Both the position numbers and the translations under genes were made by a program. From an uncultured beta proteobacterium (GTDB lineage Bacteria > Pseudomonadota > Gammaproteobacteria > Burkholderiales > Burkholderiaceae_C): DNA of 64,000 bases. The stretch spans positions 58,612-122,611 of the forward strand of contig CAIJOK010000016.1 of assembly GCA_903822205.1 (NCBI GenBank), written 5' to 3'. Shown one piece after another: positions 9,070 to 19,900 of this stretch. Each line of letters starts with the position of its first letter. The first letter of the stretch is position 1. The notes beneath the pieces were generated by a model. That model saw only the letters and a list, made by a program, of their open reading frames with translations. It did no database searches and was not told the DNA's origin.

Positions 9070-9220
9070 ATGTACTCCAAAGTGACGGCGCGTAAGCCGT
9101 GAGAAACGTCATTTGCCAGCGTAATTATCACGTATCCAGAACGACACCCTTGTGTCAGTCATGAAGCAACTCAATTGATAAAAAACACGGTTCAAGCATG
9201 GGTGAACACTCACCTATCGT

Positions 9221-9258
9221 AATCGTTTAGACCCAGTCACCATCATTCCCGCGAAGGC
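9221..9258. repeat. Left copy of an inverted repeat, half of a REP-like element
   Basis: The stretch 9221-9253 matches the reverse complement of 10108-10140 at about 30 of 34 positions with one single-base indel (shared core CGTTTAGACCC, then GTCACC and TCATTCCCGC). It ends in CATTCCCGCGAAGGC, the left half of a palindromic repeat common in proteobacteria; the right half is absent here. With the right copy it brackets the two genes at 9339-10039. Confidence 0.75.
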
Positions 9259-9338: not shown

Positions 9339-9524
9339 TCATGTTAATTTCTCCTGGCGCAACTGTTGTGCTGATATTCGCACCAGCTTTTGATCCTGCA
9401 CGATAACGATGCAGGTGTCGGTTTGTATGGCGATCTTGCGTGCCATAGCCGCCGCACGTTGAATGGCCTGCACCGATGCCCGCAGATCAGGGTCTTTGGC
9501 TTTTGATAAATCTTGGTACATCAT
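9339..9524 (-). CDS. Small protein paired with the zeta-like kinase
   Basis: A 61-residue protein beginning MMYQDLSKAKDPDLRAS and containing IQTDTCIVIVQDQKLVRIS. Its start overlaps the stop of the kinase gene by four bases (ATGA), so the two are translationally coupled. Short proteins of this type occur beside predicted kinases of this group (COG4185), which is why I treat it as a real gene and possible antitoxin partner. It has no DNA-binding fold that I can recognise. The order is kinase first, small protein second, the reverse of many toxin-antitoxin pairs. Confidence 0.7.
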   Translation of the reverse strand: MMYQDLSKAKDPDLRASVQAIQRAAAMARKIAIQTDTCIVIVQDQKLVRISAQQLRQEKLT

Positions 9525-10039
9525 TTATTTTCTCCCCATGCAAGCATCAAGGGAATCGCCCCTGCATTGTCAAACAGTGCCCAGGCATCTACCAAATTTT
9601 GGTAATACTGCTCAAAATTATGCCGACCGGCAGTAAAGCGTCGCCGAATCACTTCATCAGGAATATCGTTCCCACCATGCCTCACACGTTCAGCCACGCG
9701 CTCAATGGCGGCTTCAACCGATGGCAAAGTCAAAAAAAACAGGCTGATGTGGTAGCCACTGCGCTTCCATTCTCGGACATAACGCAGATACATCAAGCCG
9801 GACAAAGTGGTTTCGATAGCAAAACTTTCACCACGCTTGGTGCATTCAGCAATTTCTTTCAACATCAAGCGTCCTGCTTTGATGGCAGCAGTTTCTGGCG
9901 CAAAAGGTGCAAGACCTGCTGCAATGAGATCAGCGTTGATAAAACGCGGGCACTGCGCCTCAGACGGCAAAAACGAGCGGGCAAAAGTTGTCTTTCCGGC
10001 ACCGTTGGGTCCCGCAATGATGATAATTTTTTTATTCAC
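9521..10039 (-). CDS. Zeta-toxin-like P-loop kinase/ATPase
   Basis: A 172-residue protein with a Walker A motif at the N-terminus (IIIIAGPNGAGKTTFA), then FINADLIAAG and an acidic/aromatic stretch ESFAIETTLSG, the layout of the zeta-toxin and COG4185 'predicted ABC-type ATPase' group. Zeta toxins phosphorylate UDP-N-acetylglucosamine; whether this protein does so is unknown. The start is GTG at 10039, preceded at about nine bases by GGGG. It forms a two-gene operon with the small downstream protein, and both lie between inverted copies of a REP-like sequence, which suggests a transferable module. An alternative is a housekeeping small-molecule kinase. Confidence 0.82.
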   Translation of the reverse strand: MNKKIIIIAGPNGAGKTTFARSFLPSEAQCPRFINADLIAAGLAPFAPETAAIKAGRLMLKEIAECTKRGESFAIETTLSGLMYLRYVREWKRSGYHISLFFLTLPSVEAAIERVAERVRHGGNDIPDEVIRRRFTAGRHNFEQYYQNLVDAWALFDNAGAIPLMLAWGENK

Positions 10040-10082: not shown

Positions 10083-10128
10083 CCCCGTCACCGTCATTCC
10101 CTCGAAGGCGGGAATGACGGTGACGGGG
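10083..10128. repeat. REP-like palindrome with a 19-bp perfect stem
   Basis: Arms 10083-10101 and 10110-10128 are exact reverse complements, separated by the 8-base loop tcgaaggc. The core CGTCATTCC(C/-)...AAGGCGGGAATGACG is a well-known class of dispersed palindrome in proteobacterial genomes. It lies 44 bases upstream of the zeta-like kinase start, in its probable leader or promoter region. Confidence 0.9.
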
Positions 10129-10140
10129 GTCTAAACGGTT
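10108..10140. repeat. Right copy of the inverted repeat flanking the kinase module
   Basis: Reverse complement of the repeat at 9221-9253, including GGGTCTAAACGGTT at the outer end. It overlaps the right arm of the REP-like hairpin. The two copies define a unit of about 920 bp holding only the kinase and its small partner gene. Confidence 0.75.
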
Positions 10141-10305
10141 ACCTTGACGCTGTGTATTTTGTATTTGCGATCCCACGCCTTGGCATGGAAGCGATGAAGT
10201 GTCATTGTTGTAAATAAGTTACATGCTCAATAAGTATGATTAACGTAGCGCCTTATGCAGTATCGACGTGCATTGTTTGAAAAATTTAACAAAATATATT
10301 GTATG

Positions 10306-12716: not shown

Positions 12717-15050
<2,334 letters not shown>

Positions 15051-15057
15051 CAGACAG

Positions 15058-16128
15058 ATGATTTTTAATATTATTGAGCCTACCCTGAATGATTACACGG
15101 GGCATTGTTATAGTTTGGTAAAAACGATTGTACAGGCCGCACCGACTTCAGACATCTGCATTTGGGCGGGCCGTCACAGTGGCGCATTCTGGAAAAACAA
15201 GGGGCAGATAAAGCCCTATTTTTTTCGCCCATTGCGCAAAATGCAAAGTTATATTTTGTATCATCGGTTACTGAAATCACATGGCAAAATATTAGTATCA
15301 ACGGCTGGCACTTTCGATTTGGTGATGATCAACTGGGCTGCCCATGGCCTGATCCCTCCCAATAAAGTGTATTTTTATATTCACTGGCTGGGTTGCAAAA
15401 CATCAAAATCTGATATCTTGGCACAAATGGCCAAAAAGCAGCCTCATGTGGAGATTTTGTGTACGACAGAATCTGTCACCGCGTTTTTTAGAGGGCTGGG
15501 GTTTAGGGCAAGCACTGTGGCTTATCCATGCACCCTGGGTGATACCGCCATTCAGCCGTCGCGAACCTTCAAACACTTGCTGGTCGCAGGTGCGGCGCGG
15601 ATGGACAAGGGCATCGACCGCATCGCAGATTTGGTCGAACACTTGGCGCTGACCCATGCGCAGTGGCCATTGTTGGTTCAAACCTCGGCGGGGCACCAGG
15701 CACAGCACGGGGCCAACGTAGGGTTTGAATTGAACCGCATCACACAATCCGGCTACGGCCCTTTGACCTTGCTCAGCCAAACATTGGCACCACCGGACTA
15801 CCGTGCATTGTTTGCAGGTGGCATCAGCCTTCAACCCTACTCTCTGCTTGACTTTGAAGACAGGGTCAGTGGCGTGACACTGGACGCACTCACAGCGGGG
15901 TGTCCCGTCATCGTCACCGCCAACACGTGGTCTGGCCGTGCGGTCATGCAACACGATGCGGGTGTCGTCTGCGATGATGTATCGCCCTCCGTCCTGCAAC
16001 AAGCGATCAGCCACATCTTAAGTGATTACGAGGGGTATGCCGCACGGGCTGCACTGGCGGGTCGTGCGATCCTTCACACGCACTCTGCTGCCTCCATGAT
16101 GGACGTGATTTTTGAACGTAAGACTTAG
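15058..16128 (+). CDS. Glycosyltransferase, GT4-like
   Basis: A 356-residue protein with two-domain GT-B layout. The C-terminal half shows LLVAGAARMDKGIDRIADL, then LQPYSLLDFEDRVSGVTLDALTAGCPVIVT, the donor-binding pattern of group 1 (GT4) transferases with a conserved acidic residue. The N-terminal half has no clear family motif and is AT-richer. ATG 15058 follows the upstream glycosyltransferase stop by 7 bases, with GACAG upstream as a weak ribosome site. The pair probably builds LPS core or O-antigen sugars; donor and acceptor are unknown. Its stop codon TAG lies inside the 9-bp target duplication of the MITE-like element, so the insertion left the protein end intact. Confidence 0.82.
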   Translation: MIFNIIEPTLNDYTGHCYSLVKTIVQAAPTSDICIWAGRHSGAFWKNKGQIKPYFFRPLRKMQSYILYHRLLKSHGKILVSTAGTFDLVMINWAAHGLIPPNKVYFYIHWLGCKTSKSDILAQMAKKQPHVEILCTTESVTAFFRGLGFRASTVAYPCTLGDTAIQPSRTFKHLLVAGAARMDKGIDRIADLVEHLALTHAQWPLLVQTSAGHQAQHGANVGFELNRITQSGYGPLTLLSQTLAPPDYRALFAGGISLQPYSLLDFEDRVSGVTLDALTAGCPVIVTANTWSGRAVMQHDAGVVCDDVSPSVLQQAISHILSDYEGYAARAALAGRAILHTHSAASMMDVIFERKT

Positions 16129-16269
16129 AAAACTCCACTTTAGACTCTCGAAGATTTATTGAACAAAATCAATGACTTGACGGAATCAGAACTTTTTCTA
16201 CATTGTTATTAGAAATCAACAAGTTAGCTCTTCATGATGTGCTGAATGTCTAAAGTGGAGCTTAGAAAA
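16124..16269. mobile_element. MITE-like element, 128 bp, with 9-bp target duplication
   Basis: The element spans 16133-16260. Its ends, ctccactttagac (16133-16145) and gtctaaagtggag (16248-16260), are perfect 13-bp inverted repeats. Immediately outside, cttagaaaa occurs on both sides (16124-16132 and 16261-16269) as a perfect 9-bp direct repeat, the signature of transposition. The interior is AT-rich with no open frame of useful length, so the element is non-autonomous and must be moved by a transposase encoded elsewhere. A 9-bp duplication is known for several insertion sequence families; I cannot name the parent. It sits exactly at the glycosyltransferase stop codon and upstream of the phytochrome gene. 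Confidence 0.88.
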
Positions 16270-16346
16270 CAGATCGGCATGTTTCATGCGTGGCATGTCC
16301 CTCAAACATTTTGTCGTCTATTTTCAATCAGATTCAAGGTATAGAA

Positions 16347-16850
16347 ATGATAAATACTTCGCCTCAACCAACCAATGCCACCGCATTATTATTAAACGAT
16401 GAAATTGACCTGACCCAATGTGATCGTGAACCCGTACAGTTTATGGGTGCCATTAAAAATCACGGGGTTCTGCTCGTGCTTTCAAGTGAAGAGGGCCTGG
16501 TGCTGGGTGCCAGTGCCAACATCGAATCCAATTTTGAGATACCCATCGCTTCATTGCGTCAGCAGCAACCCATCCACCTCTTTGGACAAGAAGTTTGGGC
16601 GGCCATGTGGGCCAAGCTGCTACTTCTTGAAAATAACCAACCGCCGGTGTATTTTGGACAGAAGAAAATCCAAACCAAACCAAAACAACAACAACAACAA
16701 CAACAACAACCCATTTGGCATGGTACGAAGTGTTCGCCCATCGCTCTGATTCTTATTATCTGCTTGAATTTGAAGCCACGCCTGTACAAGCGGTTGATCG
16801 CAAAACCAGCGAGATTTTTATTCAGATCAATCAGTGCCTCGCCACCTTGA
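16347..16850 (+). pseudogene. Bacteriophytochrome N-terminal fragment (PAS domain), frameshifted
   Basis: Encodes the N-terminal extension and PAS domain of a bacteriophytochrome. LTQCDREPVQFMGAIKNHG matches the family start, where this cysteine binds biliverdin. The ATG at 16347 has AAGGT seven bases upstream. The frame runs through eight consecutive CAA (Gln) codons at 16686-16709; beyond about 16710 it loses family resemblance and ends at 16850. The rest of the protein continues in the -1 frame from about 16661-16715, so one indel in this stretch splits the gene. I see no canonical slippery heptamer, so mutation or a base error is likelier than programmed frameshifting. A whole-unit change of the CAA repeat cannot by itself explain it. 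Confidence 0.8.
16686..16709. repeat. CAA trinucleotide repeat, eight copies
   Basis: Eight perfect CAA units within the phytochrome gene, encoding Gln in the upstream frame (Thr in the downstream frame). It lies at or beside the point where the reading frame is lost. Confidence 0.95.
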
Positions 16851-19800
16851 AATCTGCTGATTCCTGGATTCAAGGAATGACTTTGGCGACGCAGGAATTA
16901 AGACGCTTGACTGGTTTTGATACGGTTCTCGGTATGCATATACTGGATGATGGATCTTTTCAAGCCGTTGCCGAAGCCAAAAATTCGATATTTTCATCCT
17001 TTTTGAACAAACGTTTTCCACGTTCAGACATTCCAGAACCCGGGCGACGAAAAATGGTTTTGATGCCATCCCAATACGACCCTGAGCTTGATGAATACCC
17101 CGTCCCCATCAAGATGTTGGTTGACGAATTGGATGCCACACAGATCAATATGGAACGTGCATCGTTGCGCAGTTTATCGCGGGTGTGCGTTCAGTATTAT
17201 AAAAATTTGGGGGTTCGTACAAGATTTTTGCTGTCACTGGTACAAGATGGGCATTTGTGGGGTTTTTTTTCTTTTTGGAACGCTACGCCACTTGATTTGA
17301 GTTATACCGAACGGGTGGCTTACCAAACATTTGCAGAAGCGGCTGGATTGTTACTGGCGGAGAAAAGAAAAAGCACCCAACAAAAGAAATTGCTTGATGC
17401 AAAACGAAAAATCAGCCATTTCAGTGTCGCAAATGCGTGGGGTGGCGGATTGTTGAGTTATGGTGATTTTTTGGCGGCTCAGGCTTTGGATATGCTTGAT
17501 GCGGGTGGCATCGCCATTTTTACTGTCGAAAAGATTTTTTCTGTGGGTACTGTCCCTTCAGAGTCTTATATTCACTCTCTGGTTCCATGGCTTGAACTAG
17601 GCAATGGGATTTACCACACGGACAGCCTTCCAGCCCTGATGCCCACAAATATCCATGCAAACGATACTGGGTGTGCAACCGGTCTGCTGGCCGCTAAACT
17701 ATTAGGACCCAAACAGTATTTAATGGCGTTTCGACCTGAGTGGATACAGGAAGTGCGCTGGGCCGGAGACCCCAAAAAACCGGTGGAATTTGATACACAG
17801 AACGGAACCCTTCGATTGACACCACGGGGTTCATTTGAGGAGTGGAAAGAAGTCGTGCGAGGTCGGTCACGTCCATGGGAAGACGCGGATATCGAGACCA
17901 TGGAAGATTTGCGCACGGCAGTCGTTATGGCCGATGCCAAGTGCTTGGCCGAATCGGCCAATCAGGCAAAAAGTGCATTTTTAGCCAACATGAGCCACGA
18001 GATACGCACCCCCATGAATGCCATTTTGGGACTGGCCCAGGTACTGGAGAATGGGATGGTTCATGGTGAGGCGCAGAATTTGATCAAAAAAATCAGATCT
18101 GCTGGACATAGCCTGCTGAGTCTCATCAACGACATTCTCGATTTTTCAAGAATTGAAGCCAGTCGATTGGATATTGAGCATATACCCTTTTATTTGGGTG
18201 ATATCCTTAATCGTTTGTCAACCGTGATGTCCACCAACCTCGGCAGCAAAGATATTGACCTGAGTATTGTGCCGCCACTTGGCGCTGATGCGCTGATGGG
18301 TGACCCTCTGCGGCTTGAGCAGGTGTTACTGAATTTGACCGGCAATGCCATCAAATTTACCGAACGTGGCCATATTTGCGTTGCCATTGACATCACCGAA
18401 CAGGATGTGCGCAGCATCACCTTGCGCTTCACTGTCAAAGACACCGGCATGGGCATTCCAGTGGAACGTCAAAGCGAACTGTTTGAACCTTTTACTCAAT
18501 CTGACGTATCGACCACACGACGTTTTGGTGGCACTGGACTCGGATTGGCCATATGTCATCGTTTGGTGACGTTGATGGGGGGCGAACTCAGCGTTTGCAG
18601 TGCGCCGGAAAAAGGGAGCGCGTTTGGGTTCACGTTGAACTTTGATCGGCTTGCGGACACTGAAGGCTCGATTCCATCATTGGTTGGGCTGGATGTGCTG
18701 ATCGCAGACGACAGTCCTGTGGCCTTGGATGCCCTGCGAGCAACGGTAGCGTCCTTGGGCTGGCAAGCAAGCACTGTCGTTAGCGGCGAAGCTGCCATCA
18801 ACTTGGTCTTGACCCGGGATAGAACGCAGCGTACCCACGAGGTGTTGCTACTGGACTGGCAAATGCCCGGAATGGACGGCCTGGCTGTGGCCAAAGCCAT
18901 CCGCGATGCCCTGCCGGACAGTTTTATCCCTATCCTGATCACGGCCACGGCGCTTTCCCGAGAGCGGATATTGGCCAGGCCCGAGAGCCGCTATGTGGAC
19001 GGCATATTGACCAAGCCGGTGACCCCTTCCAGTTTGCACGATGCCGTCGCCGATGCCATTCGTTCAAAACGGGGGGGGAAAGTCCCGGGTCTGTTGCCTG
19101 AAATTTTGCACAACAAACGGCTGTCCGGTTTGCATATCCTGGTGGTGGATGACAGCGACATCAATCGCGAAGTGACGTGGTACATCCTGAGCGGTGAGGG
19201 TGCCATGGTGACTTTGTCCAGCGATGGACAGCAGGCACTCGACTGGTTGCAGGCTCACCCTGGCGATGTGCATGTCGTTTTGATGGATGTCCAAATGCCT
19301 GTCATGGATGGTTATGAGGCTACCCGTGCGATTCGCCGTGCCGCACCAGAACTGGCCAAAATACCGGTGATTGCCCTGACTGCGTGTGCCTTCAAATCAG
19401 ACCAAGACGCAGCCAAAGACGCTGGAATGACCGATTTCATCGCAAAACCCTTCGAAGCCGATGCCCTGGTCAAACTGATTCAAAAAGTCACCTCCTGGCG
19501 CAGTGATACCAAGGAAACTGAGGAAGAATCTTCGCAAGTGACGATTGAAGCTTCTCAAAATCACGATCTGCCAGGTCTCAATTTGGAACGTGGATTAAGT
19601 ATCTGGAGAGATGCTGCGGTATACCAAGATTACCTGCGAAAGTTCGCAATTAAGTACGGAGATTGTCATCAACAGTTCATGATACTTGCACCTGAAGAAA
19701 GTGTGGCACTGGCGCATAAACTTAAAGGAGTCGCCGTCACAATGGGGTTGGACGACGTGGTTGCTGTTGTTCATGACATCGAGCAGAAATTACGAGAAGG

Positions 19801-19900
19801 CACATCAATTGTCACAGATTGTGATCGCTTACAAGAAAATATCGGTATTGCTTTAAGAAGTATTGATCTCTACGCACGCACCCACCCTGCGTGTGAATGA
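16715..19900 (+). CDS. Bacteriophytochrome hybrid histidine kinase, main part
   Basis: Contains, in order: the end of the PAS domain ([15 protein letters not shown]), a GAF domain with the RFPRSDIP motif, a PHY domain with tongue motif PRGSFEEW and RGRSRPW, a histidine kinase with H-box [15 protein letters not shown] and ATPase domain ([12 protein letters not shown]), two receiver domains ([25 protein letters not shown]) and a C-terminal HPt domain (LAHKLKGVA). It is therefore a complete internal phosphorelay. Two conserved chromophore-pocket histidines appear replaced: [10 protein letters not shown] in place of HMQYLRNMGV, and SFWNATP where family members have ACHHxTP. The first possible start in this frame is TTG 16715, a poor start, so the protein depends on repair of the upstream frameshift. 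A hairpin terminator follows immediately. No heme oxygenase gene is nearby. Confidence 0.88.

Follow-up and report, generated by a model that had tools for sequence, protein, structure and literature searches.

A 128-bp MITE family and its likely parent insertion sequence

The 128-bp element at 16133-16260 of the window (the whole 64,000-nucleotide stretch of DNA analysed here) is, with high confidence, a MITE: a non-autonomous DNA transposon in which little is left beyond the ends that serve as recognition sites for the transposase of a resident insertion sequence (IS). We directly observed multiple copies, their inverted ends and target duplications, one empty site, and matching IS ends with a fragment of a transposase. 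The kind of element is known. The family is new, its end sequences being absent from the literature searched (a search with the two end sequences found neither), and its likely parent is identified. A clean MITE family with a likely parent IS is useful for annotating the genus and for testing mobilisation in trans.

The features at this locus are collected in Table 1. A scan of the window found perfect 13-bp inverted ends at 128-bp spacing at this site only, and an exact flanking duplication of 8-14 bp at the same spacing at 4 of 63,820 window positions. The earlier note on this DNA had described the perfect ends and the 9-bp cttagaaaa repeats, and both the sequence and the coordinates are as it claimed. 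Its reading of a transposed, non-autonomous 128-bp element agrees with the multiple copies, the duplications and the empty site reported below. It had also held that the element lacks a transposase, and 128 bp is indeed too short to encode one; the size and the perfect 13-bp ends are those of a MITE.

Table 1. Features at and around the 128-bp element (positions in the window)
Feature	Position	Strand	Remark
Upstream gene, glycosyltransferase group 1-like (weak)	14953..16128	+	own TAG still ends it
Target duplication cttagaaaa, left copy, 9 bp	16124..16132	+	contains stop TAG (16126-16128) of upstream gene
Left terminal inverted repeat CTCCACTTTAGAC	16133..16145	+	
MITE	16133..16260	+	128 bp; 14 copies in source genome
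Promoter-like pair TTGACG-16-TACATT in MITE	16177..16204	+	toward downstream gene; consensus match only
Right terminal inverted repeat, reverse complement of CTCCACTTTAGAC	16248..16260	-	
Target duplication cttagaaaa, right copy, 9 bp	16261..16269	+	
Downstream bacteriophytochrome-like histidine kinase, two frames	16347..19900	+	
Kinase first ORF, PAS_2	16347-16850	+	
Kinase second ORF: PHY, HisKA, HATPase_c, receiver, Hpt	16715-19900	+	

This copy landed on the end of the upstream gene and left the gene intact. The earlier note had it landing on the TAG of a glycosyltransferase gene; the TAG does lie inside the duplicated 9 bp, but only weak matches support the glycosyltransferase label (Pfam Glycos_transf_1, E 1.7e-4, 21.6 bits, below the cut-off of 26.4). 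To say that the duplication regenerated the stop is fair wording, as the left copy still ends the gene, although the gene need never have been open. On the other side of the element, the kinase reading frame is split near a CAA microsatellite (~16684-16709); a pseudogene, an error in the assembly and a frameshift linked to the repeat are all possible causes of the split.

A search of the whole source genome gave 15 matches, which correspond to 14 copies of the MITE, one of them split. Twelve of the 14 are full length and uninterrupted, each 128 bp long with pairwise identities of 97.7-100%, and six of these (on contigs C16, C82, C40, C9, C106 and C21) are mutually identical over 128 bp. The copy on C124 is broken by another small element, and the copy on C134 is older, with 92% identity over query bases 10-108 followed by other repeat sequence. 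The MITE was absent from a first sample of 60 relatives, 36 of them from the same genus. When 90 genomes of the genus were covered, the source included and the best three candidates per genome scored, it was present in at least two congeners, with five copies in G104 and one in G106, making 20 copies over three genomes. The MAG KTt_bin-1310 (uncultured beta proteobacterium) also holds five copies, at contig numbers and positions equal to those in G104, so we take the two to be one assembly. An end-pair scan of a collection of 84,980 species genomes, which required a left end without mismatch and an element length of about 116-146 bp and in which the source genome's own record was perhaps not included, returned only KTt_bin-1310 (three stretches). 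The relatives that had been expected elsewhere in the genome thus exist, as the 14 copies found there, with six more in two congeners. Nested inserts lie inside 3 of the 20 copies, so the MITEs are targets themselves.

An exact flanking duplication of 8-10 bp was found at 15 of the 17 copies with readable flanks over the three genomes (8 bp at four, 9 bp at eight and 10 bp at three). The count leaves out C21 and G104.C316, both of which start at a contig start, and C134, which is without its right end. The C82 copy has no flanking duplication and the C124 copy no exact one. Insertion flanks are AT-rich, at 70% for the 20-bp flanks of the 12 full-length copies of the source genome versus 45% for the window.

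Empty-site probes were made for 13 copies, each by uniting its two flanks around a single duplication, and were compared with all sequences retrieved by then. The C105 copy is inserted in another repeat, empty versions of which lie on C138 and C82 (89-91% identity over 120-121 bp spanning the junction), and the same probe matched a G106 stretch at 87% over 86 bp. The C106 probe had an 88% match on C94, in a paralogous antitoxin locus, starting only 15 bp left of the junction (a partial empty site). A match of 73% over 84 bp for one G104 probe was excluded from the count. For 10 of the 13 probes the sequences compared contained no empty site. At the window locus, the element is missing from all eight congener loci compared at which the upstream gene has a homologue, and the downstream sequence there differs; a ninth locus, in G005, was left out of this comparison (34-bp match). 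The earlier note had proposed a comparison with an empty site in a related strain; an empty site was found for C105, in repeats of the same genome, and the window locus itself is without a close relative. None of the three observations that the note said would count against its reading was made: a single copy, no IS with such ends, or a locus conserved in relatives.

With one mismatch allowed, the end pattern gave 41 matches in the source genome versus 8 for the reversed control; among the 41, two on C61 and one each on C78 and at C139:79772 were discounted as probable chance matches. Outside the MITEs there are ten IS ends of the form CTCAACTTTAGAC, seven of which lie no more than 182 bp from a contig end, a position expected of a high-identity multicopy IS because such an IS breaks the assembly inside itself. 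The ends are of two types, B (CTCAACTTTAGACATTC) and A (CTCAACTTTAGACACA). Four A ends (C27, C44, C67 and C138) have one common inward sequence and five B ends (C43, C90, C91, C93 and C94) another, and the tenth, on C44, resembles B over just 17 bases. Over the available 139-140 bp, the C93 end has 99% identity to its counterparts on C43, C90 and C91; the C138 and C94 ends are truncated or diverged. When the flanks of the four A ends were paired with those of the six B or B-like ends (n = 24), at least four common bases were found only for C27/C91, which have 9 bp, tccagatca, in common; A and B are thus the two ends of one element. MITE and IS ends combine as CTC[AC]ACTTTAGAC, where position 4 is C in the MITE and A in the IS, and the A form stands at the right end of 3 of the 12 full-length MITE copies. 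Among the best eight candidates per genome, weak IS-end matches occur in at least 3 of the 89 other congeners (G102, G104 and G106).

The A end on C44 encodes FLDGFDRKSQKFSFPVERGDPRLRF, in which 18 of 25 residues (72%) are identical to the C-terminus of the transposase of a complete G052 IS (E 8.9e-6 in a comparison with all loci collected by then); identity to the corresponding C-terminus in G176 is 71% over 24 residues. This similarity places the source-genome IS in the G052/G176 group. Both complete elements have CTCAACTTTAGAC at both ends. The G176 element is 1597 bp long with an 8-bp duplication and a transposase of 448 aa, and the G052 element is 1579 bp long with a 12-bp duplication and a transposase of 428 aa. 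Complete relatives in general measure ~1.55-1.6 kb and carry one DDE transposase each, with a YREK motif. G106 has a B-like end with the N-terminal portion of a transposase on its inner side; this fragment is a partial match to NCBIfam NF049999 at 77 bits (below the cut-off of 170) and has no Pfam match above cut-off. A search with this fragment through 399 genomes of the order gave matches in three: the source genome, G176 and G052. The match in the source genome (C117, 25 residues) was rejected, as it is confined to the query's tail, outside the stretch with transposase homology, and has no such ends nearby.

No complete transposase gene of the parent IS was found in the source assembly, where NF049999 gives only two matches of 22-25 bits (cut-off 170). 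The better of these lies on C138, ~1.2 kb from the truncated A end, on the strand opposite to that expected. The interior of the parent IS is missing from the assembly. The source genome gave no hit to PF14706, the IS50-type DNA-binding domain. DDE_Tnp_1 genes on C36 and C74 were considered as the parent and rejected, these ends being absent within the stretches examined; congener transposases in G013, G022 and G001 (NF049999, 156-164 bits) were likewise dropped, as the sequence examined around them showed no such pair of ends. A scan of viral contigs with the G052 transposase found no relative. The expectation of a parent IS with the same ends and a 9-bp duplication is therefore borne out in part: the ends are near-identical and C27/C91 supply the 9 bp, but the IS is seen as ends plus a C-terminal fragment, not whole.

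DDE insertion sequences move by means of a transposase, which binds to the inverted ends, cleaves there and links the ends to target strands that are staggered; repair then creates the duplication. The MITE needs such an enzyme in trans because it encodes none, and we take the resident IS as the likely source since its ends match, its duplication lengths overlap and it sits in the same host. On this sequence evidence, the MITE is most likely mobilised in trans by the resident IS. The IS transposase probably binds the 13-bp MITE ends, and would then excise the MITE and insert it at AT-rich sites, with 8-10-bp target duplications as the result. Mobilisation in trans, a cut-and-paste route and current activity are inferences.

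The placement of the parent depends on which feature is consulted. Transposases of the group score 465-475 bits against NF049999, transpos_IS701_3 (465 for G176 and 470 for G052; cut-off 170). The general IS701 model NF033540 gives 52 and 64 bits for G176 and G052, respectively, below its cut-off of 150, and the NCBIfam IS4 models listed all score below cut-off for these transposases. The YREK tyrosine is present in all three relatives' transposases (YARRWGIEPLFHNLK in G176 and G052, YSNRWQIEPIFHNLK in pACF1), as is the complete Y-(2)-R-(3)-E-(6)-K; the source-genome IS is not readable there. Duplications in the group are 9 bp (C27/C91), 8 bp (G176), 12 bp (G052) and 8 bp (pACF1 and pTF5), none of them the 4 bp by which IS701 is recognised. 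In the sections of De Palmenaer 2008 (PMC2266710) drawn on here, IS701 elements have 4-bp duplications and usually lack the Y of YREK (4 of 27 elements have it), and IS4 elements have the full YREK and duplications of ~10 bp. We do not file the parent as IS701 because its group combines a complete YREK with 8-12-bp duplications. By catalytic motif and duplication length, an IS4-like parent appears better supported than an IS701 one. The group thereby questions the boundary between IS701 and IS4, its profile name being that of IS701 and its motif and duplication length those of IS4.

The IS4 subgroups with 5'-CT ends (ISPepr1, IS50 and IS10) resemble the parent group in YREK, duplications of ~8-10 bp, AT-rich targets and the 5'-CT ends themselves, as far as the same survey describes them (PMC2266710); they differ in that parent-group transposases score above the NCBIfam cut-off only for IS701_3. 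The group has the NCBIfam transposase name and a Pfam DDE_5 match in common with IS701, and differs from it in the 8-12-bp duplications and the YREK Y, set against the 4 bp and usually absent Y given there (PMC2266710). For the ISPepr1 subgroup the survey lists ends YT-AA-YTT---A and a 7-8-bp duplication (PMC2266710). At the listed positions the IS ends fit ISPepr1 at 7 of 8 and IS701 at 4 of 7, and the MITE ends at 6 of 8 and 5 of 7; judged by eye, the IS50 row of the De Palmenaer table fits the IS ends about equally well. The IS on the Acidithiobacillus plasmids pACF1 and pTF5 (WP_070807692.1 / WP_011117668.1) have a transposase of the same family (NF049999 for pACF1), 49-54% identical to those of G052 and G176, with ends CTGAAGTTTAGACAT versus CTCAACTTTAGACAT, an 8-bp duplication and lengths of 1549 and 1543 bp. 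They differ from the MITE in being autonomous and in having ends unlike at positions 3 and 6. Bacterial MITEs such as MITEAba12 and the Correia elements are, in the descriptions taken from PMC10969869, likewise short and non-coding, with inverted ends, a target duplication, near-identical copies, a host IS with matching ends and an internal promoter-like sequence; their ends and parent type are other than those of the 128-bp family.

It is possible, though we regard it as unlikely, that the family is a relic, no longer mobile in this host and dating from an earlier burst of an IS now decayed. The absence of an intact transposase from the source contigs, the truncated or diverged IS ends on C138 and C94, and the older, 92% identical C134 copy would all fit this account. 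Set against them are the 6 of 12 full-length copies that are identical over 128 bp, and the C43, C90 and C91 IS ends at 99% identity to C93, on contigs that break inside the IS as a high-identity multicopy IS would make them do. It is hardly conceivable that the element is instead a conserved regulatory or RNA hairpin and not a transposon. Its ends do pair, and a single DNA strand folds better than shuffled sequence (z -2.72, with 0 of 200 shuffles as good), but that fold follows from the inverted ends, and the region 15900-16700 has no Rfam match at E 0.1. Copies at unrelated loci with their own duplications, together with an empty site, already contradict this explanation.

A promoter-like sequence inside the MITE is suggestive only, and such sequences inside MITEs are already on record (in the part of PMC10969869 used here). 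We think it improbable that the family is a mobile regulatory cassette, its copies persisting by driving downstream genes from an outward promoter TTGACG-N15/16-TAYATT. Copies from all three species retain the promoter-like core, with spacers of 15-16 (counted by eye), but it fits 9 of 12 consensus bases, and such matches arise by chance: 16000-16500 holds two promoter-like pairs against a shuffle mean of 0.9 in 501 bp. It points toward the right-hand neighbour in 12 of the 16 copies with a nameable neighbour (of 20; C40, C71, C124 and C134 were left out), a proportion that is not significant (two-sided p 0.077). Neighbours were chosen by ORF length and by hand, with C121 below the Pfam cut-off and the first gene at C106 and C21 taken by eye. 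The added part of this account, in which copies in relatives also bring a ribosome-binding site and an ATG lying in the right inverted end, is similarly doubtful. AAAGGAG or AAAGGAA (TAGGAG in G104.C413) does precede the ATG at normal spacing in the G104 and G106 copies, and 2 of 19 copies have a long ORF in frame with this ATG (a 505-aa CheB/CheR at C5 and a 703-aa kinase at G104.C413). However, copies in the source genome are without the ribosome-binding site (CATGATGTGCTGAATG), the ATG belongs to the IS end itself, and the target duplication at C413 holds an apparent native ribosome-binding site, so that no new start is needed there. Quite unlikely, too, is the wider proposal of a mobile promoter and start-codon cassette just upstream of genes together with a parent group that breaks the IS701/IS4 rule by joining an IS701-type transposase with the full IS4 signature and helix-turn-length duplications. 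Mobilisation in trans by the resident IS remains our preferred reading.

Several smaller observations were made along the way. Antitoxin-like genes are found 25 and 19 bp downstream of two MITE copies (C9 and C106; L004 and L005), with the element's promoter-like sequence pointing at them; one of these genes is MqsA-type by Pfam, and the other adjoins a YafQ-type gene (by eye). A second small-repeat family has 16-bp ends GTAACCGTTTAGACCC, and a 145-bp copy of it lies inside the G106 MITE (L125 1595-1739) with an 8-bp duplication, aaaacaat. Ends of this second family also occur in the window at 9219-9234 (+) and 10127-10142 (-), one with a mismatch and with no common duplication, where they lie on either side of a zeta-toxin-like gene (9521-10039, minus strand). 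One G104 MITE copy (C155) contains a nested 167-bp insert (L132 about 1385-1550) whose inverted ends (TGAATCCGTGA...) are imperfect. A third mini-element, 81 bp long and with AGACATTATTGGAAAC as its 16-bp ends, is found at L015 1560-1640 (C124) and L005 817-897 (C106), flanked by a 3-bp repeat at C124 and one of up to 7 bp at C106. At C124 it is nested in the MITE, and the word AAATCAACAAGTTAGC is common to both.
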